This document shows positions 2,940 to 41,285 of a stretch of DNA of 64,000 nucleotides, piece by piece. Each line of letters begins with the position of its first letter. Within the stretch, counting starts at the first letter, position 1. Under the pieces are notes generated by a model. It was not told the origin of the DNA, searched no databases, and saw only the letters and a list, made by a program, of their open reading frames with translations. A program made the position numbers and the translations under genes. Source of the stretch: Marinobacter sp. F4218 (GTDB taxonomy: Bacteria; Pseudomonadota; Gammaproteobacteria; Pseudomonadales; Oleiphilaceae); the NCBI RefSeq assembly GCF_019443085.1, contig NZ_JAHZIL010000004.1:496001-560000 (forward strand), given 5' to 3'.

Positions 2940-2967
2940 CTTTTCAGGAAAAAATGGGCCCGAAGCC

Positions 2968-2996: not shown

Positions 2997-3031
2997 ACGC
3001 GCCTCGTTTGGGGCGAAGCCCAAAGCGAAAT

Positions 3032-3108: not shown

Positions 3109-3119
3109 GTATTCGAGAA

Positions 3120-3149
3120 GGGTCACGATTCACGTCGTGGCCCTTTTTT
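3120..3149 (+). terminator. Intrinsic terminator after tRNA-Met
   Basis: Stem arms 3120-3128 and 3135-3143 (9 bp, one G-U) with a 6-base loop, followed by TTTTTT. Located 11 bases after the tRNA CCA end. Confidence 0.88.
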
Positions 3150-3617
3150 GTTGATTCTGCCACTTTCCCCGGCCGGTCCCTGGCACGCCACAACTTCGCT
3201 ATTTAGCCAGACTGCATTCTTTTACAGCCTTCTTTAGCTTATCGGTGAGACCGGTCTTTTCATGCTTCTTAGCAATGTAAAAAGACACCCCGAACCGACC
3301 GGCGTATTGCTGGTAATAAGTGCCTTCATAATCCTTCATTTATCCGGCGACAAGCAATTTGGGGATCAGGACAGCGCCTGCCCTGCCCCTCTTGAGCACC
3401 TCCGGAGCCTGTTCCCAAGTCCTCCGCCTGAACGTGTTGCGCACAGAACATAGCGCCGAGAAAGCAATATCTGATCACGACATTAAAGCTTCTCATCTTC
3501 CGATGGAGTCCTAATAATCACTGTCCGTTGATTCTATACTAGCTATGGTGGACCTACTCCGGGTTTATTCCCGGTGTCACTTCGGCGAAAACTGCGACAA
3601 CCGGGGAAAGCCTGGAG
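3150..3617. other. Gene-poor variable stretch downstream of tRNA-Met
   Basis: About 470 bases between the tRNA terminator and the Anr box hold no recognisable full-length gene. The one coding-like element is a 46-codon minus-strand ORF (3199-3339). A plus-strand ORF of 63 codons (3262-3453) overlaps it and has no RBS or recognisable features. Position next to a tRNA 3' end and the low information content fit a site of past insertion and loss, but no flanking repeat was found. Confidence 0.4.
3199..3339 (-). CDS. Orphan 46-aa ORF, unknown
   Basis: Unrecognised. It starts at an ATG immediately after an in-frame TAA and reads MKDYEGTYYQQYAG at the N terminus, then a short hydrophobic-aromatic patch (GVSFYIA) and a Lys-rich helix-like C terminus ending ECSLAK. 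Composition is protein-like, with balanced charges, unlike the surrounding non-coding frames. No convincing Shine-Dalgarno sequence is seen. It may be a small gene, or the tail of a larger decayed gene. Confidence 0.3.
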   Translation of the reverse strand: MKDYEGTYYQQYAGRFGVSFYIAKKHEKTGLTDKLKKAVKECSLAK

Positions 3618-3631
3618 TTGATGTGTATCAA
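3618..3631 (+). promoter_or_regulatory. Perfect Fnr/Anr box before the membrane protein at 3691
   Basis: TTGAT-GTGT-ATCAA matches the Fnr/Anr consensus TTGAT-N4-ATCAA in all ten defined positions. Its centre (3624.5) is about 42 bases before a possible start site near 3666, with CAGAAT (3654-3659) as a -10-like hexamer, the geometry of a class II Fnr-activated promoter. It lies 60 bases before the ATG at 3691. Confidence 0.75.
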
Positions 3632-3690
3632 GACTGATACCGAGCGAACGGCCCAGAATTCTCTGACGGTAGTTTGGGGTGGGCAGTGAA

Positions 3691-4095
3691 ATGTTCCGGG
3701 ACACTGAAGATATCATTGTTACTCTCCCACTGGACCTGGCCGCCATTCTCCTCATAGGCATCGCCATGATCGCCTTCCATGACACCAGTGCCAACCAGGC
3801 GTTTCTGTTCGCGGTTTCGGTTGTCCCACTTTCCAGGGTCTGGACTATGGTGTACGAACGGCGATGGGGAGATGAGCAGCCCGCCCAGGAGGAACATGGC
3901 AGCCGCAACAGGGGGCTGCTCCAGAAAACAATGAGTTACGTCGGCTTTGAACTCGTCCTGTTTTTTGCCTTCACGTCTTGCAGCATCTGGATTCTCAATA
4001 TCGACACTATCAACGCCATTCTGACGGGCATCGTTCTCGTGCCTGCACATACCACCTATTGGGCCATGGCAAAGTCAATTACCGAAGAGCGCTGA
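3691..4095 (+). CDS. Four-helix inner-membrane protein, distantly PACE/BTP-like
   Basis: 134 aa from ATG 3691, preceded by GGGGTGGG; a GTG at 3679 is an alternative start. Four predicted membrane helices in two pairs (about residues 9-27, 33-52, 79-98, 103-122) separated by a charged loop. The pairwise layout, the ERRWGDEQ cytoplasmic segment after helix 2 and GFELVLFF at the start of helix 3 resemble the bacterial transmembrane pair (PACE efflux) family, in which each half carries a conserved (H/G)xxxFE-type motif; the first copy is not clear here, so the assignment is tentative. Convergent with the SMR gene, 12 bases apart. A perfect Anr box upstream suggests induction at low oxygen. Confidence 0.6.
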   Translation: MFRDTEDIIVTLPLDLAAILLIGIAMIAFHDTSANQAFLFAVSVVPLSRVWTMVYERRWGDEQPAQEEHGSRNRGLLQKTMSYVGFELVLFFAFTSCSIWILNIDTINAILTGIVLVPAHTTYWAMAKSITEER

Positions 4096-26821: not shown

Positions 26822-28420
26822 GTGCGAGCCAATCACCCTGTCACCAACCGCAGCGTGCCTGTCAGTCGAAGCGCCAATATTCTCTCAACAACCAATCCGA
26901 AGGGCCAGATCACCCACATTAACGATGAATTTGTTGAGATCAGCGGGTTTTCACGGGAAGAACTGATTGGCCAGGCTCACAACATTATTCGCCATCCGGA
27001 TATGCCCAGGGCCGCATACGAAGAAATGTGGCGCAGACTAAAGTCAGGCGAGACCTGGCTGGGAGCGGTCAAAAACCGGTGCAAAAATGGCGATCATTAC
27101 TGGGTCAAGGCCTATGCCATTCCGGTGACCGGGAAGAACGGGGAGGTCCTTGAGCTTCAGTCAATCCGCTCACAGCTTGATCCAGCGGCCGAGGCCCGGG
27201 CAGACAAACTGTATGCCAAGCTTCGCGAGACCCAACCGACCAAAGGTCCGGTAGAACCAGTGAGCCTTCGCCGCGGGTTTTCACTGCATCTGAAGCTAAT
27301 CATCGCAATAGCGCTGATACTGGCCGCGGTCAGCGCAGCTCAGTTCTTTGCCACCTCCGTCTACGCCGATCTCGCAATCCTGGCGGGTGCCTTTCTAGTA
27401 ACCTCTGCGGCAGTTATCACCCTCACCCGCCCGCTGCGGCAATCTGTCCAACGAGCCCGGGATGTCATCAATGACAGCGTCGCTGAGAAGATCTTTGTCG
27501 GGCGCACCGACGATATCGGCAGCCTGGATCTCGCTATCCTTCAACAGGCCGCAGAACTGGACGCACTCGTCAAACGCATGGACGACGTTATCGGGAAACT
27601 GCAAAGCGGCGCCGAGCAAACAATTTCCCGAAGCAATGACGCTCATTCCGCCGTGCAGGAGCAGTCTACTGCCACAGACACCATCGCCGCTGCCAGTGAA
27701 GAAATGTCCTCCACTTCGCGGGAAGTGGCCAACAACGCGTCCGGCATGCTTGACCAGGTTCGTTTGGCCAACGACAGGGTTTCCAGCGGACAGTCCCTCA
27801 CCCAGGAAACCCGCCACAGCATGGATGCGCTATCGAATGAGCTTTCAGAAGCTTCGCGAACTGTCGGCCAGCTAACCGAAGCAAGCAAGGGCGTTGCCCA
27901 GGCACTCAACGTTATTGGCGAAATCACCGAACAAACCAACCTGCTCGCTCTGAATGCCTCTATTGAGGCCGCAAGAGCGGGTGATGCCGGTCGCGGCTTT
28001 GCCGTAGTGGCGGATGAAGTCCGCAGTCTTGCGTTGCGGACAAAAACGACAACAGAACAGATTAACCAGACCCTTGGCCACTTTCATGAAACCGTTGCGA
28101 GTGCCACCGACTCAATGCAGCGCTGTGGCAGCTACGCACACAAAACCGTTGAAAACGCCAACAACTCGGAAGAGACCCTTGCAGAGCTGGTGACATTCAT
28201 AGAACGAATTTCAGAGGCCTGCGATGGAACTGCCGCAGCGGCAGAACAACAGCACAACGCATCCGCTGAAATATCAGGGAAAATCGTCAGCATCAATGAA
28301 CTTGGCGATACTGCCATGGGGGTGGTCAAGGAAGCCCAGGAGTCCATGCATGAGCTGAAAAGCCAGATCGGCGAGGTGGCCGGATTGGTTGACAGACTGC
28401 GCCAGCGGAACAGCCCCTGA
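26822..28420 (+). CDS. Aer-type PAS methyl-accepting chemotaxis protein (aerotaxis receptor)
   Basis: 532 aa from a GTG start with GAAGAGG upstream. An N-terminal PAS domain (about 20-120) carries the Aer signature: R57, H58 and D60 in IIRHPDMP, at the same numbers as the FAD-binding residues of E. coli Aer, and [16 protein letters not shown]. Two adjacent membrane helices (about 158-200), then a short HAMP-like linker and a signalling domain whose hairpin tip is [20 protein letters not shown]. No periplasmic sensor domain, as expected for Aer. It probably senses redox state through FAD. Followed by two signalling genes on the same strand. Confidence 0.92.
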
Positions 28421-28458
28421 TTCAGTAACGTCCAATAAATCACCGATGGTTGTTCTAA

Positions 28459-31400
28459 GTGATTGAAATCCAGGTTTTGGGTAACAAAGAAACCGCTGAC
28501 TGGCTGGCGCGGAAGGAGAAAAGCCTCTCCGCTTCCGGATTCCGCTGTCAATTCAGTGGCATAGATGACGAGCCAAGACCGGCAGAGGCCCCTGATGCCT
28601 GGCTTGTTGACTTTGATGCATGCGGAAAACCCTCTCTTGCTGACGTCCTCGAAGGAATAGGCAGCAGCGCCAGCGGGGCGGTACCGGTGGTGATTGCCGG
28701 AAAAGCAATCAGCATCGGGTCTGCCAGGCAGGCAGCGCTTGGCGGTGCTAGGCGCTTTCTGGAAAAACCCCTCACACCACGAGCACTTGTCAACGCGTGT
28801 AGGGGGCTCGGGATATTCAACACCCTGAGCTCCAGAACTGCTGTCGTTCTTGAGAACCGGCAGGCAATCCTTGAAAAAATCTGCAGGCCACTGGCCGAGC
28901 AGTCAGTTAATGCATTGCCCGCCAGCTCCGTTGAAGAGGCTCTCAACCTGGCGCGACATAACGATTCGGACGTCATCGTTATCAGCCATGACAAGGAGTC
29001 TCAGAGCTATCACGAACTCGCGGCATTGTTTGGCTTTTTCCCGGAGACCTCAGACATCCCGGTTATTTTCATCAATGAGGATATTGCCGATGCCGCTGCA
29101 AAGGACTTCCTGAATCGCCTCGGAACCGGGACCTTCTGCCCCTCATACCGAATGCTGGGACAGTTTCTGAGGGAGCAGACAGGCCGACAAAGTCGCCGCA
29201 CACTCTCAGGTGGACGGGTCTATGACATCCTGCACGAACGGGAACAGGAACACTTTGCGCTGAATCATCACGCCATCGTCAGCACGACAGACAGCAGAGG
29301 GATAATCACCGAGGTAAACAGGCGGTTCTGTGACGTCAGCCAGTACTCCAAGACCGAGCTGATCGGCCAGAACCACCGCATTCTGAAATCCGGCTACCAC
29401 TCCGCCGACTTTTACCGGGATCTCTGGAAAACCGTATCCGGAGGTGACGTATGGCAGGGCGAGATATGCAACCAGGCCAAGGACGGCAGCCACTACTGGG
29501 TATCGTCCACGGTCGTACCGTTTCTCGACAGCAAAAAGCGGCCCTACAAATACATAGCAATCCGGAAAGACATCACCCATGTCAAAGCATCGGAGCGTCA
29601 GGTGGAGCTCCAGGGTGAGCTTGCAAAGCTCGTCAGTGAAGCCAGCGCGCACGTTCTGTCGGGACACTGGTCCAACGCACCGGAAACCCTCCGATCAGCG
29701 CTGCACCCCCTGTGTCGGTTTCTTGATGTCCGCCACGTTTCCATCAAACTGCACCGGGCCGTCGGACTTTTATCCAACTGGCAAAACTACACCAGCGGTC
29801 CAGACCAGGATGTCTCACTTACCATAACCAGTTTTGAAACCGCCGGAACAGAAAGGCAAGAAAACAATAGCCACGTGATTGAATCCCGACTAGGAACAGG
29901 CGAGGAGGAGCTGGGCTCACTGACCATGCATGCAGGTCAGAACAGGATGATCGAGGTTATTTGCGCCCAGGGACTGATCGACGTGATGGGAAATGTCATC
30001 TCCCATTCCCTGGTCCGCTGGATATCGGAATACCACAAGGAGCGAGACCGGGAACGATTGCAGACAGCACAGTCGTTCGCGAGGATTGGCACATGGGAGT
30101 GGAATCTGGAAACCGACGAACTTCTCTGGACCGACATCATCCCCGCACTATTTGGTCAGCCCGAGGACAATGTGGAAACCTCCTATGACAACTTCATGTC
30201 AGCCATTCACCCCGAGGACCGGGAAAAGGTGGAATCAGGGGTAACCGCAGCAATTGAGCGCAATAAGCCCTACCGTGTTGAACATCGGGTGGTCTGGCCG
30301 GATGGCACTGTCAGATGGCTCCGGGAAACCGGGGCGGTCAACCGAAGCGAAGATGGAACCCCTCGGCAGATGCTGGGTGTTGTCGAGGATATTACCGCCG
30401 CCCATGAAGCGGAGGTTCAGCTGGCGCGCCAGGCTCAAATGCTGAACATGCTTCACGACTCCCTGACTGCGTTCATCCTCGACGGGAAGTTCGAGGCCAC
30501 AATAGAGGCCATGCTGGAAAGCCTGCTTGAGCTGACCGATAGCGAGTCCGGTTTCATGGCCGAAGTGCTTTTTGACAGCACAGAAGAGCCCCACCTCAGG
30601 ATTCAGTCCATGACCGACATTGGCTGGGACGAAGCTTCCAAGGACATATATAAGCAGGCCCGTACCGACAGGATCGAATTAAATCAACTGGACAAAATGC
30701 TGGGTGCTTCGATCAGGGAAAGGAGGATTATTCATAGTAATGAAGCCGAGTCAGAAGGCATCTTCAACCATCTTCCACAAGGCCATTCGCCGATAAAAAC
30801 CTTTCTGAGTGTTCCCATAATGGTGGGTCCCGACCTGGTCGGAGTGTTTGCGCTTGCCAACCGTAAATCGGGTTACGATGACGCTCTAATCAATTTCCTA
30901 CGTCCTTTTTCAGCAACCTATGGCGTGATCATCAATTCCCAACGAATGGTGGATATGGAGCAGACCCATCGGAAGAACCTGATCAGGGCCAAGCTGCGGG
31001 CTGATAAGGCGAACCGGGCTAAATCCGAATTTCTTTCCAGCATGAGTCATGAATTACGCACACCGCTTAATGCCATTCTCGGCTTTGCCCAGCTGCTGGA
31101 AAGCGATGACGAATTGAATGACGACCAGCAGGACAGTGTCCGGGAAATCTTCTCTGCGAGCGAACATCTCCTGGCCCTGATCAACGAGGTACTGGACCTT
31201 GCCCGGATCGAATCCGGCAAACTGGACCTCTTTCTGGAAACGGTCCCGGTTAGAGATGTAGTCGAGGAAGCGCTCACGCTTGTCCGTCTGTCCGCCAAGA
31301 AACGCGGTATCCGCATCAACCTTGACGGACTGCATAACTTCTGGGTGACCGCGGACTGGACCCGGCTCAAGCAGGCACTGCTAAACCTGCTTTCCAATGC

Positions 31401-32136
31401 GGTAAAGTATAACCACACGAATGGCACCATCTTCCTGGAGACCCTCCCCCAGGGGGACGCCTGGCTAGAGATCCGGGTAACCGATACCGGCGTTGGCATC
31501 CCCGAATCCCGGATCCCGGAACTGTTTCAGCCCTTTAATCGCTTGGGTGCGGAGCTCAGTCACATTGAAGGCACCGGTATTGGATTATCACTCACCCAGA
31601 GGGTGGTGGATCTCATGGGGGGGAGCATCGGTGTGCGTAGCACGGTAGATGAGGGCTCGACCTTCTGGATCCGCCTGCCTGTCCAGCCCCGGGATAACAA
31701 TACGAACGAGGAACCATCCCTCTCCAGCGATGCCGTATGGGAGGCACCGAAAGACCAGTCTCTGGCCGAAAAACCGACGATTCTTTATATCGAAGATAAT
31801 CCAGCCAACCTGAAACTGGTCAAACGTATCATTCAGTGTGATGCCAGGTTTTCACTGTTATCGGCATCCAGCGGAGAAGAAGGATTGCGAGTGGCCGACA
31901 ACTGCAAGCCGGATCTGATTCTTCTCGACATCAATCTGCCGGACAGGGATGGCTATCAGGTCCTGCACGCGCTAAAGAGCCGGCCCGGAAACCGGAGCTT
32001 GCCCATAGTGGCCCTGACGGCTAGCGCGATGCCGAGTGAAGTCTGGCGAGGCAATAATGCGGGCTTTGACGACTACCTGACCAAGCCGTTCAACGTTCAG
32101 GAATTGATGAGCACACTGGAAAAACACCTCGGGTAA
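28459..32136 (+). CDS. Large hybrid sensor histidine kinase (REC-like/REC-like/PAS/GAF-like/PAS/GAF/HisKA/HATPase/REC)
   Basis: 1225 aa from GTG 28459; the SD is poor. No membrane segments, so cytoplasmic. Order: a degenerate receiver-like domain (about 1-115, with EKPLTPRALVNA), a second receiver-like region (about 120-245), PAS (about 262-372), a GAF-like region (about 385-525), PAS (about 535-650, GTWEWNLETDEL), GAF (about 665-825), HisKA with phospho-acceptor H864 in SHELRTPLNAI, HATPase (about 970-1085, DTGVGIPESRIPELFQPF) and a C-terminal receiver with D1157 in LLDINLPD. The N-terminal receiver-like domains lack the phospho-Asp signature. The HD-GYP response regulator 8 bases downstream is the likely partner. 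Confidence 0.9.
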   Translation: MIEIQVLGNKETADWLARKEKSLSASGFRCQFSGIDDEPRPAEAPDAWLVDFDACGKPSLADVLEGIGSSASGAVPVVIAGKAISIGSARQAALGGARRFLEKPLTPRALVNACRGLGIFNTLSSRTAVVLENRQAILEKICRPLAEQSVNALPASSVEEALNLARHNDSDVIVISHDKESQSYHELAALFGFFPETSDIPVIFINEDIADAAAKDFLNRLGTGTFCPSYRMLGQFLREQTGRQSRRTLSGGRVYDILHEREQEHFALNHHAIVSTTDSRGIITEVNRRFCDVSQYSKTELIGQNHRILKSGYHSADFYRDLWKTVSGGDVWQGEICNQAKDGSHYWVSSTVVPFLDSKKRPYKYIAIRKDITHVKASERQVELQGELAKLVSEASAHVLSGHWSNAPETLRSALHPLCRFLDVRHVSIKLHRAVGLLSNWQNYTSGPDQDVSLTITSFETAGTERQENNSHVIESRLGTGEEELGSLTMHAGQNRMIEVICAQGLIDVMGNVISHSLVRWISEYHKERDRERLQTAQSFARIGTWEWNLETDELLWTDIIPALFGQPEDNVETSYDNFMSAIHPEDREKVESGVTAAIERNKPYRVEHRVVWPDGTVRWLRETGAVNRSEDGTPRQMLGVVEDITAAHEAEVQLARQAQMLNMLHDSLTAFILDGKFEATIEAMLESLLELTDSESGFMAEVLFDSTEEPHLRIQSMTDIGWDEASKDIYKQARTDRIELNQLDKMLGASIRERRIIHSNEAESEGIFNHLPQGHSPIKTFLSVPIMVGPDLVGVFALANRKSGYDDALINFLRPFSATYGVIINSQRMVDMEQTHRKNLIRAKLRADKANRAKSEFLSSMSHELRTPLNAILGFAQLLESDDELNDDQQDSVREIFSASEHLLALINEVLDLARIESGKLDLFLETVPVRDVVEEALTLVRLSAKKRGIRINLDGLHNFWVTADWTRLKQALLNLLSNAVKYNHTNGTIFLETLPQGDAWLEIRVTDTGVGIPESRIPELFQPFNRLGAELSHIEGTGIGLSLTQRVVDLMGGSIGVRSTVDEGSTFWIRLPVQPRDNNTNEEPSLSSDAVWEAPKDQSLAEKPTILYIEDNPANLKLVKRIIQCDARFSLLSASSGEEGLRVADNCKPDLILLDINLPDRDGYQVLHALKSRPGNRSLPIVALTASAMPSEVWRGNNAGFDDYLTKPFNVQELMSTLEKHLG

Positions 32137-32144
32137 AAAGATTC

Positions 32145-33218
32145 ATGCATGTAATCCCTGAAGAAAACCTTTTTGAACAGACGATCTTTGTCATCGATGA
32201 TGAGCCGGTTAACCTCAAACTGCTCAACAAGATCCTTAAAAACGCAGGCTATCTCAACCTGGTTCTGATCAGCGACCCCCGGGATGTTATCGCTTCATAC
32301 CGGGAACACCGCCCGTCATTGATACTGCTTGATCTCAACATGCCGAATATTGACGGCTATCAGATCATGGAGCAACTGAAAGACCTCGACGATCCGCTGC
32401 TGCCCCCCATCATCGTCCTGACAGCCCAGAATCAGCAGGACTACCTACTGCGGGCACTGGAGACCGGGGCCAGGGATTTTGTCAACAAACCATTTGACCG
32501 GCGCGAATTACTGATGCGGGTCCGAAATTTCCTGGACGCCCATGTTGCCCATAAGCTGGTTCGCGACCAGAAAAACCATCTGGAGCTTTTGGTGGAAGAG
32601 CGGACCCGGGAGTTACAGGCAACCCGACTCGGGATAATTCGCCGGTTGGGCCATGCAGCAGAATACCGGGACGAAGAAACAGGCAACCATATCTTGAGGA
32701 TGAGCAAGATGTGCGCCCTGCTTGCCAGCAAGGCCGGCTATAACAAACAACAATGCGACCTGATCCTGGCTGCCAGTCCGATGCATGATATCGGTAAAAT
32801 CGGCATCCCTGATTCAGTCTTGCTGAAACCGGGCAAGCTGGATCCAGAGGAGTGGCGGATCATGAAATCACACTCCGAGATCGGCGCTCGCCTCCTGGAA
32901 GGAGATGACAGCGAACTCCTTGCAATGGCCCGCGAGATTGCCCTTACTCATCATGAAAAATGGGACGGGACGGGCTATCCAAACGGGCTACAGGGGAAAG
33001 CCATACCGCTACCGGGAAGAATTGCAGCCCTGGCTGACGTCTTTGATGCATTGACCTCTCCCCGCCCCTACAAGGAAGCCTGGCCAATGGAGAAGGCGGT
33101 AGAACTGATCCGCGAGAACCGCGGAAACCATTTTGATCCGGACCTCGTCGACCTATTTCTGGGCAACCTTGATGACTTTCTTGAAATCAAGCTCGCTCAC
33201 CAGGACGGCACTGACTGA
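32145..33218 (+). CDS. Response regulator with HD-GYP cyclic-di-GMP phosphodiesterase domain
   Basis: 357 aa, RpfG-like layout. Receiver domain (about 10-130) with phospho-acceptor D63 in LLDLNMP and the conserved Lys in NKPF; a helical linker; HD-GYP domain (about 170-345) with H214-D215 in MHDIGKIGIPD, H269-H270 in HHEKWDGTGYP (G277-Y278-P279). All metal-binding and GYP residues are intact, so it should degrade c-di-GMP. Directly downstream of the hybrid kinase (8-base gap), which probably controls it by phosphorelay. Confidence 0.94.
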   Translation: MHVIPEENLFEQTIFVIDDEPVNLKLLNKILKNAGYLNLVLISDPRDVIASYREHRPSLILLDLNMPNIDGYQIMEQLKDLDDPLLPPIIVLTAQNQQDYLLRALETGARDFVNKPFDRRELLMRVRNFLDAHVAHKLVRDQKNHLELLVEERTRELQATRLGIIRRLGHAAEYRDEETGNHILRMSKMCALLASKAGYNKQQCDLILAASPMHDIGKIGIPDSVLLKPGKLDPEEWRIMKSHSEIGARLLEGDDSELLAMAREIALTHHEKWDGTGYPNGLQGKAIPLPGRIAALADVFDALTSPRPYKEAWPMEKAVELIRENRGNHFDPDLVDLFLGNLDDFLEIKLAHQDGTD

Positions 33219-33225
33219 AAAGCCA

Positions 33226-33511
33226 ATGAATCCTGAAAACCTGAAGTGAATACTGAATGCCATACCGGATGCCGCTATCCTGATAGATCCCGGGCACTTT
33301 ATCGTTACTGCCAACTCCCGAGCCGCAGATATCTTCGGCACCACCGTTGAAAGCATGACAGGTGCGCCACTGGACATCCTGATTCCGGAACACGCGGCTG
33401 GAGGCCGCCAACCTTCGGCTGACAAGAGCCCAGGATGCTGGCGGACTGCGAGCAGGCACTCAAGCGTGCAGATGAGGCACTTTACCAAAGCAAAACCGAT
33501 TCCAGCCGCGC
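33226..33511 (+). pseudogene. Decayed PAS-GGDEF (diguanylate cyclase) remnant
   Basis: Frame 1 from ATG 33226 reads MNPENLK, an in-frame TGA (33247), then a clear PAS domain start (LNAIPDAAILIDPGHFIVTA and ADIFGTTVESMTG) up to about 33410. Frame 2 then briefly reads EAANLRLTRAQ. Frame 3 from 33435 reads the C-terminal end of a GGDEF domain (CEQALKRADEALYQSKTDSSR) that continues into the opposing AraC gene. So the gene has a nonsense mutation, a large internal deletion removing the catalytic GGDEF core, and frameshifts. It once followed the HD-GYP gene in the same operon. Confidence 0.8.
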
Positions 33512-34441
33512 CTATGGGCTGATCTCAACGGAACGAGGAATTGCAGAGCCATGGCGCACACCCTGCCGACTGCGCGCCCCCTCAACGGCCCCCACGTTTT
33601 CTGAAAATTTTGTCAGGGATTCAAGGCATTCGAGCGTCTCGCTTGGATACTCACCAAAATGCTCACGGTAATAAGAGGAAAAGCGGCCGAGATGGTTAAA
33701 TCCCCAGCGGAGTGCGTGATTGGCAATCTGGGGGTCTTCCTCATAATTGCGGATCAGGGACTCCCGGGCCTTTATCAGACGGCGGGACAGACAATAGTTA
33801 TATGGGCTCATGCCCGTATATTTTTTCATCAGATAGTAGAGGTTCCGGATACTTAACCCGGACTCACTCGCAACCATTTCCAAATCAACACCATGTTCAA
33901 GCCGCTCATTTATCAGCTTCACTGCCTGACAAATCCGGCGTTCATCACGGACATGAACCTCAGGCAGTGAGGTAACTGAACCGTCGCCGCAATGCTGCAC
34001 CAATGCTCGCTCAAACCATTGGACACGCTCCAGGGCATGCTCATGCCCCTTAAGGAATGCCATTTGGATCACAAAACTTTCAAGTAGCCTCGCGATGTTC
34101 GGGTCACCGCTCCTGGGGAATGCTTGCGGTTTTCTGGCACCGGGCGATCCCATCTGAACAATGAAGAGATGGGTTTCCGCCGACACATGGGCGCAATACT
34201 CGGCATTCGGTTCAAGAACGAAGGGAACTCCGGGTGCACTCAAGAAACTCTGACCATCAAGCTCAAACTCCGCGGCGCCCTCAAGAGGCAAAACAATCAC
34301 CGGAGATTCGGTATTTGAGCCAGATATTCTATAGGCCTGATTCAGATAGATACCGCAAAGATTGACACGTTTACCCGGCAGGAAAGCCAGGTGGGCATAG
34401 AAATCCATCCGCTCACTGAGACCAGTGATTTCCTGCGACAT
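33512..34441 (-). CDS. AraC-family transcriptional regulator
   Basis: 310 aa from ATG 34441; a longer reading to 34576 adds 45 residues of unlikely composition. The N-terminal half (about 15-180) resembles the AraC-binding-like domain of XylS/FeaR-type regulators, with ESPVIVLPLEGAAEFELDGQ. The C-terminal DNA-binding domain (about 195-300) has two HTH motifs: VDLEMVASESGLSIRNLYYLMKKYTGMSP and the RWGFNHLGRFSSYYREHFGEYPSE ending typical of the XylS subgroup. It may control nearby genes; no operator was identified. The 3' end overlaps the pseudogene remnant. Confidence 0.88.
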   Translation of the reverse strand: MSQEITGLSERMDFYAHLAFLPGKRVNLCGIYLNQAYRISGSNTESPVIVLPLEGAAEFELDGQSFLSAPGVPFVLEPNAEYCAHVSAETHLFIVQMGSPGARKPQAFPRSGDPNIARLLESFVIQMAFLKGHEHALERVQWFERALVQHCGDGSVTSLPEVHVRDERRICQAVKLINERLEHGVDLEMVASESGLSIRNLYYLMKKYTGMSPYNYCLSRRLIKARESLIRNYEEDPQIANHALRWGFNHLGRFSSYYREHFGEYPSETLECLESLTKFSENVGAVEGARSRQGVRHGSAIPRSVEISP

Positions 34442-34924
34442 CTTGAGGTTGCCACTCAAGGTCTGAAGCGAGGACAGACAATAGCTCGGACTTCTCGTGG
34501 CAAAGCGAAGGTAGTGCTCAAGAATGAAGCATTGGCTGCTACAGGCTCGCAAGACAAACTCCTCTGTTGTACGCACAAGGCTCGCGTATCAACATATCTA
34601 CATAAGCTGAATGAACCAATATTTCGCTATGCAACTCTTTGTTTCATAAGGGCAAGCTTTATTTTTGCAGTATGCGGACATTGAGAAATATGTTCTGCGC
34701 GTATACTCAAGCAGTTGAAATGAGTTGTTTACCTGAAGAAGCCGCTCTTCCTCCAAGTCCAATTCCAAAAATAAAGCGCGCCCTTCACAGAGCATTACAA
34801 AAAAAATACGAACTATTTCATTCAGCAATATTAGGTTTCATTTTTATCTTTAAAACATACATTTATGTATTACATTGCGACATATGTTCCACTGAATACT
34901 CTACAGGCCGGCCTTAGACTTTTA
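34442..34924. other. AT-rich gene-free stretch upstream of the Roadblock/GTPase operon
   Basis: About 480 bases, distinctly AT-rich from 34600 onward, with poly-A and TTTATT tracts. Short ORFs on both strands (34598-34828 minus, 34639-34917 plus) have no SD or recognisable content. The stretch ends at the perfect Anr box at 34925. Composition suggests regulatory DNA or recently acquired sequence. Confidence 0.45.
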
Positions 34925-34938
34925 TTGATCAGAATCAA
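34925..34938 (+). promoter_or_regulatory. Perfect Fnr/Anr box upstream of the six-gene operon
   Basis: TTGAT-CAGA-ATCAA, all ten defined positions. Centre 34931.5. A -10 hexamer TATAAG at 34964-34969 would place the start near 34975, about 43 bases from the box centre, close to the -41.5 position of class II Fnr-activated promoters. The first gene starts at 35019. Confidence 0.82.
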
Positions 34939-35018
34939 TTTTTATAAAGACCTTCAATTCAGATATAAGCCGAAATTCATCAATTGCCGGTAACGCATTT
35001 GTCGCTTTGGGAAATCGC

Positions 35019-35657
35019 ATGAACAGCAGAATAGAGTCTTCCAACACCACGAACGCTGGGAAAGCGGAGTTTTTCAGCCCCGACGATTGTCTGATCACAA
35101 GTTTCCGGCGAGCGTCAGCGAACAAGCAGGACATTCGCATCTCAACAGACGCTTATGGGGACTTGGTGCTCCTCAGTACCCGGGGAGAATATTTTGCAGA
35201 CAGCCCGGATTTGCCGGGGCTCCTTCAACACTCTGTGGGGAAATTTCGTGTAAAGGTTCTCTCCGCAGAAGACAGTGACGCCTATGAAAACAAGGTGGGC
35301 AGAAACATAGACGAACTGATGTGGAAGACCGCGTTTTATGTTTCGAAAGGACGCCTGATGGAAGGCTGTCACTGGAACGATGTGGTTCAGCTTGATTACT
35401 GGCCTAATCTCACCCGCCTCCCCTTAACACCGGATACATTCAGGATCTTGGCCCTGTTTTTCAAACATCCGACATCCATCTTCTTTGCGTCCCGGCTGTT
35501 AAAGGTCCCGGCCAGTGAAATGTGTCAGATATACAGCGCAGCCCGCGCAGCCGGTTTCGCTCGCGCCATCAACCGGAAGCCAGAGGAACCCCGACTTGAG
35601 CCTCACCGCAGCCAGACCCTCTTGTCCTCGCTTCTCAGCAAACTCGCCGGGCGCTAG
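35019..35657 (+). CDS. Unknown protein, first gene of the Roadblock/GTPase operon
   Basis: 212 aa from ATG 35019 with GGGA upstream (an in-frame TTG at 35007 is an alternative). Unrecognised. Two parts can be seen: a mixed N-terminal region (about 20-125, with ADSPDLPGLLQHSVGKFRV) and a helical C-terminal region (about 130-190, LPLTPDTFRILALFFKHPTSI and FFASRLLKVPASEMCQIYSA) that has the look of a winged-helix-like domain. No signal peptide or membrane helix. Nine bases separate it from the GTPase gene. A role as regulator or effector adaptor of the GTPase is inferred from context only. Confidence 0.75.
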   Translation: MNSRIESSNTTNAGKAEFFSPDDCLITSFRRASANKQDIRISTDAYGDLVLLSTRGEYFADSPDLPGLLQHSVGKFRVKVLSAEDSDAYENKVGRNIDELMWKTAFYVSKGRLMEGCHWNDVVQLDYWPNLTRLPLTPDTFRILALFFKHPTSIFFASRLLKVPASEMCQIYSAARAAGFARAINRKPEEPRLEPHRSQTLLSSLLSKLAGR

Positions 35658-35666
35658 GAGCTCTTT

Positions 35667-36200
35667 ATGGAACATAAAATCATCTTCGCCGGGCCTGTCG
35701 GTGCGGGTAAAACGACGGCAATAGGGGCCATCAGTGATATCGAGGTAGTCAGCACTGAAAGCAAGGCAACCGATAGCGTTTCACAACGCAAGGAAACCAC
35801 GACCGTTGCGATGGATTACGGCACTCTGAATGTCGGAGACGGGCAAAAAGTTCACCTGTACGGGACCCCTGGACAGGAGCGCTTCAGCTTTATGTGGGAC
35901 ATTGTCACGATTGGGGGGCTGGGCCTGGTCGTGTTAATCGACAATAACCGGGAGGATCCACTTGCCGACCTGGAATTCTATATTCAAGCCTTCCGCCCTT
36001 TCATTAGAAAAAGCTCTCTGGTCATTGGGGTAACCAGTATGGACAAGAAGGCCCGGCCCGGCCTTTATTCCTACCACACAAAGCTCAGTGAACTCGGAAT
36101 AAAAGCCCCGGTTTTTGAAGTCGATGCCCGCGAACGAAATGATATTTCTGTTTTGCTACAGGCGCTGTTGGCCATGCTGGACCCGGGAGTGAAGCGTTGA
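35667..36200 (+). CDS. Small Ras-like GTPase (COG2229/MglA-related)
   Basis: 177 aa; AGGAG precedes the ATG. Motifs: G1 GPVGAGKTT (residues 9-17), a Thr-rich switch I (KETTTVAMDYG), G3 replaced by LYGTPGQERF where most Ras proteins have DxAGQE, G4-like TSMDKK, and a weak G5 (EVDARE). The missing Asp in G3 is typical of the COG2229/MglA group of prokaryotic small GTPases. Such GTPases usually work with Roadblock/LC7 proteins, and two are encoded in this operon. Its last codons overlap the TTG start of the next gene. Cytoplasmic; probably a nucleotide-dependent switch. Confidence 0.88.
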   Translation: MEHKIIFAGPVGAGKTTAIGAISDIEVVSTESKATDSVSQRKETTTVAMDYGTLNVGDGQKVHLYGTPGQERFSFMWDIVTIGGLGLVVLIDNNREDPLADLEFYIQAFRPFIRKSSLVIGVTSMDKKARPGLYSYHTKLSELGIKAPVFEVDARERNDISVLLQALLAMLDPGVKR

Positions 36201-37534
36201 ATAGCTTTGAACAGGATGGGCTAACCCCATCGGTTCTTTCACTTAATGGCTTCGGTGTGGCTTTCCGAGAGAAAACCGTGCTTGCGAGTGTCGACCTCGA
36301 GGTTGCGGACCGGGAAATCACAATTCTTCTCGGACCCAGCGGAACCGGAAAGTCGACATTGCTCCGGACACTAGCCGGTTTTAACGACCCAAACCCCAAT
36401 CTCCGTACCTGGGGCAATGTAAGCTACATTGGCGACTCCCTGGGCGAGGGGGAACGGCCCGTACTTGCCGCACAGAACGCCAGAATGGTCATGGCGAGTA
36501 TCCTCGAAAACATTATTCAGGATCTCCCGGAGAGAAGGTCCCTGTCACCTATACAGCAACGTCGGCTGGCACAAAGACTTCTGAAAACCGCCGGGCTGCA
36601 GGAACTCGTTGACAGAATTGATGAGCCCGTTATCCATTTGAGCCTGGCACAACAAAGACACCTCACCACCATGCGGCTTGCAGCAACGGGAGCTCGCCTG
36701 ATGTTGCTCGACGAGCCAACTACCGGCCTGAATGATCAGGAAGCAGAGCGCCTGCTGCATTATATTGCTTCCGAGGGGCAGCGCCGCTCAATCCTCATCG
36801 CATTGCACAACCTCTCTCATGCTTCACTTATTGGCGGGCGCATGGTTCTGATTGCAGGAGGCACCGTTCATGAGTCTGCAAAAACGAGCGACTTTCTCAG
36901 GCATCCATCCAGTGAGGCAGGAAAAAGCTTTGTGAGAACCGGCTCCTGTGCCGTTGCTGCTCCCGACGCAGATCCTGAGACTCTGGCTCCTGAAACGCCA
37001 CCTCCGCCACCTCTCCCGGAGGAAGCGCGTTCCTATGTCAGCGACAGCTTCGGCCCGAGAGGTTTTCTCTGGCTCAAGAAAGGACAACTGGCAGGCACAC
37101 CCAGGCCGGGAATTGTTCAGGATCTTGAGTATGACCTCAAAGCACTGAAACGTGTTGGCATTACAACTTTAATCACACTCACCGAGACCCAACCTGACAC
37201 CGAAGCTCTGGCCGAGTACGGGATCGAAAATATCTGGTCGCCATTCCAGGATATGGCGGCCCCTTCAATTACCCAGGCTGCAGGCCTCTGCAAAATGATA
37301 CAGAAACTCTGCGATGAGGGCGGCGTCGTTGCTGTCCATTGCAGGGCCGGCCTCGGTCGCACCGGAACCATACTTGCCTGCTGCCTGATCTGGGAAGGCA
37401 AGGCGGCACTCGATTCTCTGGAAACAGTCCGCCGTATCGAGCCCCGCTGGGTTCAGTCCGAAGCACAAGTGGAATTCCTGGAGAAATTTGCCCTGTTTTT
37501 GAACGAACGGGTAAGAAACACGCAGGCATCCTGA
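36197..37534 (+). CDS. Fusion of ABC-type ATPase and dual-specificity/tyrosine phosphatase
   Basis: 445 aa from TTG 36197, overlapping the GTPase stop by 3 bases, with GGGAG upstream. Residues 1-240 are an ABC-transporter-type ATPase: Walker A GPSGTGKST (46-54), a signature degenerate at LSLAQ (148-152) instead of LSGGQ, Walker B LMLLDEP (168-174), H-loop H204. A Pro-rich linker (about 255-280, PPPPPLP) follows. Residues 285-445 are a cysteine phosphatase with HCRAGLGRTG (381-390, nucleophile C382) and a candidate general acid D352. No permease gene is nearby, so transport is not evident. The phosphatase could act on a Ser/Thr/Tyr phosphoprotein or phosphoinositide-like substrate. An ABC-DSP fusion is unusual. 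Confidence 0.85.
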   Translation: MNSFEQDGLTPSVLSLNGFGVAFREKTVLASVDLEVADREITILLGPSGTGKSTLLRTLAGFNDPNPNLRTWGNVSYIGDSLGEGERPVLAAQNARMVMASILENIIQDLPERRSLSPIQQRRLAQRLLKTAGLQELVDRIDEPVIHLSLAQQRHLTTMRLAATGARLMLLDEPTTGLNDQEAERLLHYIASEGQRRSILIALHNLSHASLIGGRMVLIAGGTVHESAKTSDFLRHPSSEAGKSFVRTGSCAVAAPDADPETLAPETPPPPPLPEEARSYVSDSFGPRGFLWLKKGQLAGTPRPGIVQDLEYDLKALKRVGITTLITLTETQPDTEALAEYGIENIWSPFQDMAAPSITQAAGLCKMIQKLCDEGGVVAVHCRAGLGRTGTILACCLIWEGKAALDSLETVRRIEPRWVQSEAQVEFLEKFALFLNERVRNTQAS

Positions 37535-37572
37535 CAGATCCTGTGAAAACTAAAAGATGAGGAGAACAACGA

Positions 37573-37980
37573 ATGTCCGACCTTGATAACGCTATTCAGC
37601 AAGCTATATCAACCATTCCGGAGTGCCTTGCCGGTGGCTACGTAGATCTGTCCAGCGGGATGCTTCTCGGTATTAAAACCGTGGACTCACACCCTGAGGA
37701 AGTACTTGAAATGCTCGCGGCAGCAACTGCCGACCTGTTCCAGGGTCCTAACGTCGTCAGCATCGAAAATATGTTCAAGAAAGCCCGAGGCTTGCCACTT
37801 GACGACTTCCATTACTTCCAGGAAATCATTGTTAACAGCGAAAACCTGATTCACGTGTTCATGCGAACCAAAGAAAACCAGGACCACGTTGTGACCTTTG
37901 TCTGTCGCAAAACAGCCAACCTGGGCATGGTAATTACAAAAGCCCGCAGCGCTCTACCAAAAGTTGAAGCAGCACTGTAA
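37573..37980 (+). CDS. Roadblock/LC7-like protein (first copy)
   Basis: 135 aa; GGAG precedes the ATG. The pattern fits the Roadblock/LC7 (MglB-like) fold: N-terminal helix (DLDNAIQQAISTIPE), a beta hairpin (AGGYVDLSSGMLLGIK), a central helix (EVLEMLAAATADLF), then strands (FHYFQEIIVNSENLIHVFMR) and a final helix. Prokaryotic Roadblock proteins bind small GTPases and act as GAPs or platforms. Divergent, so identification rests on layout and context. It is 39 bases after the ABC-phosphatase gene. Confidence 0.7.
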   Translation: MSDLDNAIQQAISTIPECLAGGYVDLSSGMLLGIKTVDSHPEEVLEMLAAATADLFQGPNVVSIENMFKKARGLPLDDFHYFQEIIVNSENLIHVFMRTKENQDHVVTFVCRKTANLGMVITKARSALPKVEAAL

Positions 37981-37984
37981 CTCA

Positions 37985-38013
37985 TCTGCCGGCCGGGCTT
38001 ACGCTCGGCCAGG
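37985..38013 (+). repeat. Hairpin between the two Roadblock genes
   Basis: Imperfect inverted repeat with arms TGCCGGCCG and CGGCC-A-GGCA around a short loop, in the 69-base gap between the two Roadblock-like genes. No U run, so it is likely an mRNA-stabilising or processing structure rather than a terminator. Confidence 0.4.
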
Positions 38014-38049
38014 CAACTCCTCCAGTGAGCTATTAAACAGGAATAACGG

Positions 38050-38457
38050 ATGACCGCCGAGATTAATTCCGGGCAAAATCACCCGAAAGCGAGTGCTGCA
38101 AGGTCGATTTTGAGAGAGTTAAACGCTTCCTCAGATGACATAGAAGCCTCAGCCACAATGACAACCGACGGTTACATCATTGGTGCTGTACTGAGTAAAG
38201 ATACTGATCAAGACCGGTTTGCGGCAATGTGTGCATCTCTACTCGCATTGGCTGAAAAGGCTGCGGACGAGATCGCCCGAGGCCAGATGAAGCAACTTTT
38301 AATAGAAGGATCTCAGGGACTGATGCTTTTGGTAAGGGCCGGCGGAGACAAGGTTCTCGCGGTGGCTGCAAAACCAACCGTCAATCTCGGACGCATCTTT
38401 CTTGAGGCACGCAAATCTGCCACAAAAATTGACCAACTCATCGGTAACGAATACTGA
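38050..38457 (+). CDS. Roadblock/LC7 domain protein (second copy)
   Basis: 135 aa; AGGAATAA upstream of the ATG. Clearer Roadblock/LC7 pattern than the first copy: helix (ARSILRELNASSDDIEAS), strand pair (ATMTTDGYIIGAVL), central helix (AMCASLLALAEKAADEI), then GQMKQLLIEGSQGLMLLVRAG and KVLAVAAKPTVNLGRIFLEARK, the last matching the end of MglB-type domains. It probably forms homodimers or a heterodimer with the first copy and engages the GTPase of the operon. Confidence 0.85.
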   Translation: MTAEINSGQNHPKASAARSILRELNASSDDIEASATMTTDGYIIGAVLSKDTDQDRFAAMCASLLALAEKAADEIARGQMKQLLIEGSQGLMLLVRAGGDKVLAVAAKPTVNLGRIFLEARKSATKIDQLIGNEY

Positions 38458-38473
38458 AGCATGAGCAATAGCA

Positions 38474-39337
38474 ATGTTTAAAGTTGAATATCTGGGAAGC
38501 CATTATAACTGTGGGTCAGAGGAGACAATACTTGAGGCTATGCTCCGGCAAGGTGTGAAATTTCCATTTTCATGCCGCAAAGGCTCCTGTCACGCCTGCA
38601 TCCATATTGCCGAAAAGGGGTCGCTTCCCCCTGACTCTCAGAAAGGATTAAGTAGCGAGCAGGTCGATGAGGGGTTCTTTCTTCCCTGTGTCTGCAAACC
38701 GACAGACTCGCTCTCGATTATTCCAGGAAACAAAAGAACCCTGAATAAAAAGCTGCCCGCTGGTGCCTCTGAGGGTGGCACATTTTTATCGCCTGACCCT
38801 GAAATGTGGGAAGCATTGGACGATGGTCGCGTGCTGGCTGAGATTCTGGAAGATTTCTACACAGAGGCTTTTTCAGATGAAAGGCTTTCTCCCTTTTTTC
38901 ACGGCGTAACCCAGCAACGCGCTCAAGAAAAACAGTACCTCTTCCTCCGACAAAAATTTACCGGAGAAAAAGTCTATTTCGGAGACAGGCCAAAAAATGC
39001 CCACCATTGGATGGTCATATCCAACGATCTTTTCGATTACCGAGAGTCGTTGATGATGGAATGCCTGAAACGCCATAACTTGCCTGAACACTTGATAGAG
39101 CGTTGGCGCAGTCTGGAAAACAGCTTTCGTGGGGATATTGTCAAGGATGAGCCCTGGAATCGAAAAATAGGCGATATCGAAATGCCCGTATCGGGTTACG
39201 GAGAAGTCACGCTGGAAATCGGGTCACTCTGCGATAGCTGCAATGCTGAGATACAAGAGGGCACAACCGTGCGATATCATCTTCGCTTGGGGACTCTTTA
39301 CTGCCCCAACTGCATGAATTCGCCTGTGGAGGGCTGA
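38474..39337 (+). CDS. [2Fe-2S] ferredoxin-truncated globin-CxxC/CxxC fusion
   Basis: 287 aa. Residues 1-90 are a plant-type ferredoxin with C34, C39, C42 (SCRKGSCHAC) and C72 or C74 as the cluster ligands. Residues about 108-225 resemble a truncated haemoglobin: the helix B/C-like segment EILEDFYTEAFSDERLSPFF, the FGDRPKNAHHWMVIS stretch with H177/H178 (candidate proximal haem ligand), and a final helix. Residues 250-283 hold two CxxC pairs (CDSC 253-256, CPNC 277-280), likely a zinc or iron knuckle. The combination predicts an electron-fed O2- or NO-binding protein. Last gene of the operon; the SD is weak. Confidence 0.83.
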   Translation: MFKVEYLGSHYNCGSEETILEAMLRQGVKFPFSCRKGSCHACIHIAEKGSLPPDSQKGLSSEQVDEGFFLPCVCKPTDSLSIIPGNKRTLNKKLPAGASEGGTFLSPDPEMWEALDDGRVLAEILEDFYTEAFSDERLSPFFHGVTQQRAQEKQYLFLRQKFTGEKVYFGDRPKNAHHWMVISNDLFDYRESLMMECLKRHNLPEHLIERWRSLENSFRGDIVKDEPWNRKIGDIEMPVSGYGEVTLEIGSLCDSCNAEIQEGTTVRYHLRLGTLYCPNCMNSPVEG

Positions 39338-39383
39338 CCTGACCATTGAGTGCCGTAATAAGCTCCCAAGCCCATCTTCTTAG

Positions 39384-41285
39384 TCATTCGAGTAAACCCA
39401 GCAAATAATCGGATAACCTCTGGTAGCCATACTCCACGCGAGCATAGACTCCCGAAGGTGCTTCCTCAAATTCCCGCCCGCAGGCCCGGGCACCGCTGTA
39501 TTTCTTCAGATAAGCTTCTTCGATTAGGTTGGGCTGCCCGGCCTCGAAGGTGCCTTCGCCCACCGGCGGATAATACATCACCCATTCGAAACTTCCGTCG
39601 GCGTCGACGTTGGTCAGGCTGGCCGATGCCGGGTCCAGGAAACCATACCGGAGCGGACGTTTGAGCGTGAGGCGGTCTTCAGGCCCCGGATATGCAAATT
39701 CCCTCGCATCAAATTCCAGCGCGAGATCCACAAAACTAGCGGGCTGGGGCGAATACCCCGAAAAGTCATAACCCTGAGCCGCACTGACGACCAGATCCAT
39801 GCCAACGGCCTCCTGCGCCACCGTGCAGTCAGTCAGGGCTTCACTGAAGGTCAGCGCTTCGAGCTCTGAGCCGCTTTCGCTCAACCGGTAACCGGGAAAG
39901 CCGGCCGTGGCGTTTGCCTCTTGCGGCTCCAGCGTTCGGGTAAGCATGGAGCCACCGGGCTGGGGGATTTGAGCAACCAGCTCGGCCAGACTGCCATCCT
40001 GCATCGTCCAGCTATAAGTGACTTCCGGATTGCCACCCAGCTCGCTGGACCCCGCAAAAATACCCTCCTGATCGTGACAGGTGGTCGTTGTCTCGAAATA
40101 GATGCGGTTATTCACCCAATCAAACTCAAGACGCTCATCAACGCCGGCGTTGGCGAAGTTAATCCGGCTCTGGGCCGACAAAGCAGCAGACGGCAGCCAC
40201 TGGGTACCGAGATTGGCGACATAACCACCCGCCGAAATCAGCCGCGCCAGCTCGGGCATCGAAGGGGACAGGCAGCCCTCGGCAGAGACGGACTTGATGC
40301 GCCCATCTTCGCTGTAGTCAAAGGCCAGTTCGGCCGATATCTGCAGGTCCGAGAGGTTGGCTGGCAAGGTATCAGATCGCTCCGGCTGCGCGAAAACCCG
40401 CTGCAGGGTGAGCAACGTCGGATCACTCAGCGCCAGTGGAACCTCCGGCAGAACCAGCGAATCGATATCAACGTTGGCGAAATCACCATTCGCGGCGTCG
40501 TTCACGATACCGATCACCTGATTTGCATTCTGGACCAGGGAAATACCAAGAAGGAAAGCCGCCTGAGGGCTCAGGTACCGTTCGGTACCGTCGCTGCCGG
40601 GCGCAGCCAGAAGGTGGTTGTACTCCTGGGGCACCTGACTGGCCATGAATCGCGCCAGGGCACGGGCATAGGCGTGTGCCTGATCGTCACCGGCGAGGAC
40701 GTAATCCCGAACCAGATTGAGGTCGACCAAACTGGCATCCAGGTCCTCCCCTGCCCCTTCCGGCAGGCCAGCCAATCCCCGGAACCTTGCCAGCGTGGTC
40801 AGCGGAGTGATATTGCGGAGCCCCGGCGATGCCGACATCATGAAGGCATCGGTAACGACCAAGTCACCGGCCCGGGTCTCCTCCAGTGTCTGCCCCGGGA
40901 TCGCCAAGGCGATCAAGGGGTAGTCCCGGGGATCCAGATCAGGTCCGACAACGGGGTCAACCGACAGCTCGGATACGTCCAGGGAAAACGCACCACCCGC
41001 CCCGCTCATGGCCGTTGGTTCGCCCGACTCCAGAACCACATCAGCGCCATTTTCCAGGGTGATAATCAGCGGCCCGGCGGTGTACTGGCCATCCCGATCC
41101 ATATCCAGCCAGACCCGTGCATTTTTCAGGTAGCCATCGATAACCTTGCCCGTATAGGCCGCAGATTCGCTGTATTCAGCACCATCAAAATCTCTGCCAT
41201 CCACGGGCAGCTGATCGGATTCCTCACCGCAACCGGTCAGGGTGAGCGTGAGAGCGAAGACGGAGAGACTCGGGAGGCGTTTCAT
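39384..41285 (-). CDS. Large putative lipoprotein, unknown
   Basis: 633 aa. Lipoprotein signal peptide with lipobox LTGC (C19); no Asp at +2, so outer-membrane sorting is expected. Mature part: KVIDGYLKNARVWLDMDRDGQY, a motif common in bacterial secreted proteins with a carboxypeptidase-regulatory-like beta fold, then helical and beta-rich regions without a recognised catalytic site. Four or more Cys residues (for example CLSPS, TTTCHDQ, TDCTV, RACGRE) could form disulfides in the periplasm. Low-Lys, acidic composition. Function not known. Confidence 0.75.
   Translation of the reverse strand: MKRLPSLSVFALTLTLTGCGEESDQLPVDGRDFDGAEYSESAAYTGKVIDGYLKNARVWLDMDRDGQYTAGPLIITLENGADVVLESGEPTAMSGAGGAFSLDVSELSVDPVVGPDLDPRDYPLIALAIPGQTLEETRAGDLVVTDAFMMSASPGLRNITPLTTLARFRGLAGLPEGAGEDLDASLVDLNLVRDYVLAGDDQAHAYARALARFMASQVPQEYNHLLAAPGSDGTERYLSPQAAFLLGISLVQNANQVIGIVNDAANGDFANVDIDSLVLPEVPLALSDPTLLTLQRVFAQPERSDTLPANLSDLQISAELAFDYSEDGRIKSVSAEGCLSPSMPELARLISAGGYVANLGTQWLPSAALSAQSRINFANAGVDERLEFDWVNNRIYFETTTTCHDQEGIFAGSSELGGNPEVTYSWTMQDGSLAELVAQIPQPGGSMLTRTLEPQEANATAGFPGYRLSESGSELEALTFSEALTDCTVAQEAVGMDLVVSAAQGYDFSGYSPQPASFVDLALEFDAREFAYPGPEDRLTLKRPLRYGFLDPASASLTNVDADGSFEWVMYYPPVGEGTFEAGQPNLIEEAYLKKYSGARACGREFEEAPSGVYARVEYGYQRLSDYLLGLLE

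Follow-up and report, generated by a model that had tools for sequence, protein, structure and literature searches.

ATP-binding cassette (ABC) ATPases are usually taken to be transporter motors or nucleic-acid machines, which work as head-to-tail dimers with the LSGGQ signature supplied in trans. A gene of Marinobacter sp. F4218 raises the question of what such an ATPase does when this signature is replaced and the chain runs on into a cysteine phosphatase of the dual-specificity phosphatase (DSP) type. The gene lies in a window of 64,000 nt (the whole stretch of DNA that was analysed; assembly GCF_019443085.1, contig NZ_JAHZIL010000004.1, positions 496,001–560,000 of the forward strand), between the genes for a small Ras-like GTPase and for a protein of the roadblock/MglB fold, RB1 (Table 1). 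Comparison with homologous loci revealed that the fusion is conserved and that RB1 is its constant neighbour. With moderate confidence, we read the protein as a non-transport, PstB-like ABC ATPase joined to a DSP-type phosphatase, which would serve as a phosphatase that responds to ATP within a signalling unit built around a roadblock protein.

The fusion forms a conserved family

The first-pass annotation of this DNA had described one 445-aa chain in which a Pro-rich linker joins an ABC ATPase to a phosphatase, and had proposed a domain search and a survey of homologues. The open reading frame (ORF) and its Pfam matches confirmed this architecture: ABC_tran covers residues 30–176 (E 1.9e-17), and beyond the linker the C-terminal half matches Tc-R-P (299–402, 4e-22), PTP-SAK (287–405, 8.4e-20) and DSPc (315–421, 1.3e-9), with PF22785, PF22784 and PF00782 all over the cut-off. 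When named genomes were searched with the phosphatase half, 161 relatives emerged, and the counts below refer to the best 80 loci, the 81 lower-scoring relatives lying outside them. These 80 loci hold 81 phosphatase-half ORFs, 79 of which are fused to the same ABC half; homologues in which the halves are always separate genes, the case that the annotation had set against its proposal, are thus not what the survey found. Several of the loci come from similar metagenome-assembled genomes (MAGs), and four pairs (L057/L039, L058/L042, L078/L041 and L090/L043) are apparently the same contigs present twice, so the counts are not counts of independent events. The record titles include Marinobacter, Halospina, Microbulbifer, Thiobacillus, Gallionella and Derxia, and further Polaromonas, Comamonas, Acidocella and several Myxococcota MAGs. 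The fusion family is conserved, mainly in gamma- and betaproteobacteria.

In a set of 58 genomes that includes its own, full-length matches occurred, among the matches listed, only in the genome of the window and in one of 36 genomes of the same genus (G021; 54% identity over residues 11–432); in no other genome was the best match stronger than E 8.2e-25, and the listed ones are essentially confined to the ABC half. A sample of 369 genomes of the same class, overlapping the named loci in part, contained seven with matches of E 1e-30 or lower; the RB1 gene led to one more, G423. When these 369 genomes were scanned with a phosphatase-half profile, eight scored at least 119 bits, each in a frame of at least 427 aa and each with the ABC half. 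Twenty further genomes gave 21 matches of at most 81.6 bits, 18 of them in frames of 165–233 aa and three in longer ones (540, 510 and 286 aa). None of the 12 loci fetched for these weaker matches (L205–L216) contained an ABC match, the 286-aa frame (G150) lying outside that set. Because the architecture recurs across homologues (79 of 81) and the strong phosphatase matches sit in long frames, the fusion is a protein family, and a chance or mis-joined ORF is ruled out.

Some members of this wider group have other arrangements. One Marinobacter MAG contig (L050) carries two copies of the fusion with RB1 (2535–3902 and 9254–10591), about 5 kb apart. In two loci (L205, 1492–3114; L215, 526–2001), broadly similar DSP phosphatases are fused, as judged by eye, to an ADP-ribosylglycohydrolase-like domain and show no ABC match.

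A role in anti-phage defence was considered and rejected: PADLOC returned only short matches in the P-loop region of the fusion (best mad3, E 2.4e-9, residues 24–58) and none for five neighbours. No plasmid match was obtained at E 1e-30. Neither the fusion nor a roadblock–ABC pairing was found described in the open-access literature searched, which leaves out most subscription journals and so does not prove absence in print.

RB1, not the GTPase, is the constant neighbour of the fusion

The gene that follows the fusion encodes RB1, on which the first-pass annotation was silent. Because its sequence gave neither a Pfam roadblock domain nor a significant match to a solved structure (best E 0.2), RB1 was folded. 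The resulting model (predicted local distance difference test, pLDDT, 89; predicted template modelling score, pTM, 0.81) has the roadblock fold: its best match was MglB of Myxococcus (6hjm_D; Z 16.4, 2.0 A over 118 residues), level with further MglB and roadblock structures.

Analysis of the named loci placed RB1 within 1 kb of 79 of the 81 phosphatase ORFs. At a strict cut-off (>150 bits), it stood with 77 of the 79 fusions, always on the same strand, downstream in 72 loci and upstream in 5, so the association survives a change of gene order. The two fusions without it lie near the ends of short contigs, 70 bases downstream of the ORF in L091 and 211 bases upstream in L123; the 7 kb in view downstream in L123 contain no RB1, and relatives of similar length (L111, L118, L122 and L124) have RB1 upstream. 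Among the 369 genomes, strong RB1 matches (at least 59% identity) were present in exactly the eight fusion genomes and adjoined the fusion in all eight, and 14 other genomes contained only weak matches (26–34%). Similarly, in a phylum-level draw of 398 genomes, which overlaps the 369-genome sample, five RB1 matches exceeded 200 bits, all with the fusion, and 29 lay at 78–108 bits. Loci were fetched for 15 of the genomes with weak matches (6 of the 14 and 9 of the 29), and none showed an ABC or phosphatase match within the stretches fetched.

RB1 also differs in sequence from other roadblocks. Twenty-eight positions are fixed to at least 88% in 43 RB1s and are the same in at most 20% of 20 non-fusion roadblocks; two of them, Cys18 and Cys111, each occur in 42 of the 43 aligned RB1s and in none of the 20. 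Examples of RB1-specific positions are 35–44, 80–82, 96–100, 111–112 and 121–123. In 41 loci with all six genes, mean pairwise identity was highest for RB1 (0.68), followed by the phosphatase half (0.57), the GTPase (0.55), the ABC half (0.51), RB2 (0.49) and the companion protein (0.29), the last two being further members of the operon. RB1 is tandemly duplicated beside the fusion in L061, L088 and L112. In genomes of the family f226 (e.g., L188–L191, L193 and L194), sister roadblocks resembling RB1 (78–108 bits) are common without the fusion, and they often share a stretch with a small GTPase or a second roadblock.

The other close neighbour is the GTPase. The first-pass annotation had taken the overlap between the start of the fusion and the stop of the GTPase gene as a sign of tight stoichiometric coupling. 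The overlap of 4 bases is real, and it recurs exactly in 19 of the 52 fusions (out of 79) that have a GTPase upstream within 1.5 kb; since ORFs were called from the earliest start, other intergenic distances are rough. The tight coupling is unsupported, however: a GTPase lies elsewhere in the locus for 4 of the 79 fusions and is not in view for 23, and in 13 loci where each flank in view spans at least 4.5 kb, the GTPase is lacking and RB1 is kept. By gene neighbourhood, the constant partner of the fusion is RB1, not the GTPase. The genes around 12 of the GTPase-less loci look mutually unrelated by eye, and in five such loci (L111, L117, L118, L122 and L124) a ferredoxin-globin gene lies beside or near the fusion–RB1 pair.

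These counts bear on the strongest alternative, that the true partner is the GTPase, with the fusion as an effector of the GTP-bound MglA-like protein and RB1 as merely one of two MglB-type regulators. Besides the frequent upstream GTPase gene and its overlap, this alternative can call on published Group 3 MglA systems, which according to passages of PMC4316618 have one or two MglB proteins, and on a distance correlation that is higher for ABC half and GTPase (0.55) than for ABC half and RB1 (0.34). It is at odds with the 13 GTPase-less loci that retain RB1 and with Group 3-like operons that have no fusion (L155–L157), and we hold it to be rather unlikely.

The ABC half has kept its ATP-site residues and lost its signature

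The ABC half resembles PstB. A fold search with the AlphaFold2 model of the whole fusion, built from a 59-sequence alignment, gave matches that were filled by the ABC half, with the PstB chain 9k3s_C at the top (Z 27.1, 2.0 A over 235 residues) and 9k3x_C, also PstB, tied; the phosphatase half was accordingly assessed by sequence. The model itself (mean pLDDT 90, pTM 0.65) is read as confident domains whose relative placement is uncertain. By sequence, the solved chain nearest to the ABC half was 9k3x_C (residues 11–246, E 2.6e-16), and the NCBIfam model scoring highest on the window protein was PstB at 112.7 bits, followed by models at 85.8 (also a phosphate model) and 78.7 bits.

Residues were counted in 80 sequences, the window protein and 79 homologues. 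Walker A, Walker B and the H-loop, which the annotation had called intact, are present in the window protein and throughout the family: the Walker A pattern GxxxxGK[ST] occurs in 77 of 80 fusions, the other three being cut by a contig end (L087 and L102) or frame-broken (L061), and the Walker B Asp-Glu and the H-loop His in all 80. The Q-loop Gln (Q93 in the window protein) is kept in 79, with one sequence gapped. The degenerate signature, likewise noted in the annotation, is a property of the whole family: LSGGQ occurs in 0 of 80 fusions. Signature position 3 is never Gly, and position 7 is basic throughout, with Arg in 79 sequences and Lys in the remaining one. In 28 control ABC ATPases, the best-matching ABC proteins of related genomes (18 of which share one identical signature string), SGGQ was kept in all 28, with Gln at position 7. 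The D-loop has diverged along with the signature. ABC dimers normally clamp ATP between the Walker A motif of one subunit and the LSGGQ of its partner, so a symmetric sandwich dimer of the ABC half is unlikely on these sequences.

The absence of a permease nearby was also borne out, none being found by Pfam among the window genes scanned (26822–41285). Gene clusters shared by at least six loci were judged by eye, each on a single representative, and none could be recognised as a permease or Pst family. One neighbour cluster, present in six loci, reads by eye like an HlyD-type membrane-fusion protein.

Three further explanations concern the ABC half. It might act in trans on a true transporter, likeliest Pst, either as a heterodimer with PstB that combines its own Walker A/B with the signature of PstB, or by docking to the permease; the fusion would then regulate phosphate uptake or signalling. 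The top NCBIfam model and the best fold match fit such a role, and PstB has the best E-value among the models matching 59 of 59 fusions, the other 24 models listed also matching all 59. One good Walker A/B with a partner's signature is chemically possible, as in asymmetric ABC dimers. However, the fusion shares the fold of PstB and differs from it in having no LSGGQ, no permease nearby, an added C-terminal phosphatase and a score of 112.7 bits, far under the curated PstB cut-off (TIGR00972, 343.2 bits). The clusters in which no Pst family was recognised, and a constant partner that is a roadblock protein, also speak against this role, which we consider distinctly unlikely. Still less likely is that the ABC half persists only as a scaffold, as a domain in decay: the signature and D-loop have diverged, but Walker A, the Walker B Asp-Glu, the Q-loop and the H-loop His are retained in every sequence that can be read there, and the motif in place of the signature is under constraint too, with Arg or Lys at position 7 in 80 of 80. 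That a usual transporter ATPase became fused to a phosphatase by accident hardly deserves consideration despite the clear ABC_tran domain, given the signature lost in all 80 fusions, the lack of a permease among the scanned window neighbours and the conservation of the fusion across several classes. A regulatory role of the ATPase, and not a transport role, fits best with these sequence features.

The phosphatase half is of the DSP type

The phosphatase P-loop described in the first-pass annotation, with Cys382, is present, and its pattern HCxxGxGR[TS]G fits 79 of 80 fusions. Asp352, upstream of the P-loop and the candidate general acid, is present in all 80. The nearest solved chain is a DSP-family phosphatase (25xa_A; residues 291–435, E 3.5e-22). 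Small DSP-type phosphatases (Tc-R-P, PTP-SAK and DSPc; PDB 25xa, DUSP23 and PTP4A) are alike in the HCxAGxGRTG-type P-loop and the upstream Asp; they differ in that the half found here is fused to the C-terminal side of an ABC ATPase and has an N-terminal motif of its own, GPRGFLWL. In the linker, Gly249 is conserved in 59 of 59 and Cys251 in 57 of 59 aligned fusions.

A putative roadblock-controlled phosphatase

In our preferred reading, that of an ATP-responsive phosphatase in a roadblock-centred unit, the ABC half would bind ATP and, being unable to form the usual symmetric sandwich, may work as a nucleotide switch and not as a pump motor. A dimer of RB1 would bind the ABC half and read or set this switch. 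The state of RB1 might in turn be set by the GTPase, by a heme or redox signal, or by both, where those genes exist, and would decide the nucleotide state of the ABC half and through it how the phosphatase is exposed or placed. The output would be the phosphatase, with a phosphoprotein or a small phosphorylated molecule as substrate.

A bolder version, which we put forward only tentatively, is that RB1 is a roadblock that once served a small GTPase and now serves an ABC ATPase. The RB1 dimer would then control the signature-less ABC domain, possibly with the involvement of R154, and so gate the phosphatase; Cys18 and Cys111 of RB1, Cys251 of the linker and the frequent ferredoxin-globin neighbour could make the unit responsive to redox state or gas.

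Several observations weigh against our reading. ATP binding, ATP hydrolysis and phosphatase activity are all deduced from conserved residues, and the pairing of RB1 with the ABC half from gene adjacency, which is indirect. Robl_LC7 was matched in 0 of 23 members of the RB1 family, and the profile match of RB1 to RB2 is short (34 columns, probability 82). Mirror-distance correlations of RB1 with the ABC half (0.34) and the phosphatase half (0.26) are lower than those of the ABC half with the GTPase (0.55) and RB2 (0.57), RB1 being the protein that varies least. As to the fusion itself, one 177-aa phosphatase ORF (L096) is unfused, with no ABC half by tblastn; another (L113) is unfused as read and cut by the contig end; and a frame change breaks up the ABC half of L061.

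The wider operon

The fusion and RB1 belong to a set of genes on one strand (Table 1). Most of the loci combine the two with a GTPase, the companion protein and RB2, and a ferredoxin-globin protein is frequently added. In 21 aligned GTPases, G66, P68, G69 and Q70 of the G3 motif are invariant and NKxD is absent; in G5, D153 and R155 are invariant, and the middle residue is Ala in 13, otherwise Pro, Gly or Thr. Pfam did not match the companion protein upstream of the GTPase consistently, and its best PDB match (E 0.17) was not a confident one. The ferredoxin-globin protein ends, as seen by eye, in a CxxC...CxxC arrangement, and 49 of 81 cases have a match to the globin family in view. One relative of it (L041, 4665–6257; 530 aa) appears by eye to consist of ferredoxin, FAD/NAD reductase and globin, in an order unlike that of flavohemoglobin.

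Table 1 Features of the fusion gene and its operon in the window (position 1 is the first base of the window).
Feature	Position	Strand	Description
Companion protein	35007..35657	+	Conserved; candidate Group 3 receiver/wHTH-type protein
Small Ras-like GTPase	35667..36200	+	Group 3 MglA-like; GTPGQ in G3, no NKxD Lys in G4, DAR in G5
ABC ATPase–DSP phosphatase fusion	36197..37534	+	445 aa, TTG start, single chain
ABC half	36197..36940	+	PstB-like; residues 1–248
Walker A	36332..36358	+	GPSGTGKST; residues 46–54
Signature position	36638..36658	+	LSLAQQR; residues 148–154, LSGGQ replaced, basic R154 at position 7
Walker B	36698..36721	+	LMLLDEPT; residues 168–175, Glu173
H-loop His204	36806..36808	+	His in 80/80 fusions
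Linker	36941..37051	+	Pro-rich; residues 249–285, begins GSC
Phosphatase half	37052..37531	+	DSP-type cysteine phosphatase; residues 286–445
Phosphatase P-loop	37337..37366	+	HCRAGLGRTG; residues 381–390, Cys382/Arg388
RB1	37573..37980	+	Roadblock/MglB-fold protein; 135 aa, next gene after the fusion
RB2	38050..38457	+	Second roadblock; Robl_LC7 (PF03259), E 2.9e-13
Ferredoxin-globin protein	38474..39337	+	2Fe-2S ferredoxin and truncated-globin fusion; Fer2 2.1e-14, Bac_globin 6.6e-8

Upstream of the operon, the window contains genes for an MCP-PAS chemoreceptor (26822–28420), a hybrid PAS/GAF histidine kinase (28459–32136) and a receiver-HD protein (32145–33218). A small protein family recurs in 10 of the 80 loci (e.g., L062, 11791–12165), and the one member scanned matched CxxCxxCC (PF03692, putative zinc/iron-chelating).

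Comparison with known systems

The operon resembles the Group 3 MglA systems, a likeness drawn from motifs and gene content that was absent from the first-pass annotation. As described in passages of Wuichet & Sogaard-Andersen (2014, PMC4316618), Group 3 is almost exclusively found in beta- and gammaproteobacteria; its MglA proteins have GTPGQ, lack the usual Lys in G4 and show D-x-R in G5, features that Group 2 shares; and its operons encode a protein of unknown function with receiver-like and winged-helix regions together with one or two MglB. The operon in the window is alike in the GTPase motifs, in a conserved companion protein and in MglB-type roadblocks (RB2 by Pfam, RB1 by fold). It differs in that no ABC ATPase or phosphatase component is named in those passages, the word phosphatase being absent from the main text and the ABC passage concerning sequences excluded as noise, and in that RB1 and the fusion here are also present in loci that lack the GTPase. 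An orphan mglB allele affected gut colonisation in Snodgrassella, which has a Group 3 mglA, and type IV pili were proposed as the route, according to passages of PMC11112851.

The actinobacterial conservons (AGPS; cvnA-D with an optional P450 or GAF gene), as presented in passages of PMC13343842, are likewise cassettes of a roadblock, a GTPase and companions with optional heme or sensor genes. They are described from Actinomycetota, and no ABC–phosphatase fusion appears in those passages; the unit in the window, for its part, has no CvnA-type kinase directly beside a roadblock gene, the nearest kinase (28459–32136) being separated by two genes, one of them on the opposite strand. The globin–Roadblock/LC7 protein HGbRL of Methylacidiphilum, from passages of PMC4476040, is a precedent for a heme globin and a roadblock in one chain, whereas the globin in the window is part of a separate ferredoxin fusion within the operon.

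Implications

The most unusual form of the system is the RB1–fusion unit without the GTPase. If our reading is true, an ABC ATP site without a signature, joined to a phosphatase and served by an MglB-like partner, would be a new use of the ABC fold. Roadblock proteins would gain a candidate client other than a GTPase, and the little-studied Group 3 MglA systems would gain a candidate enzymatic output.

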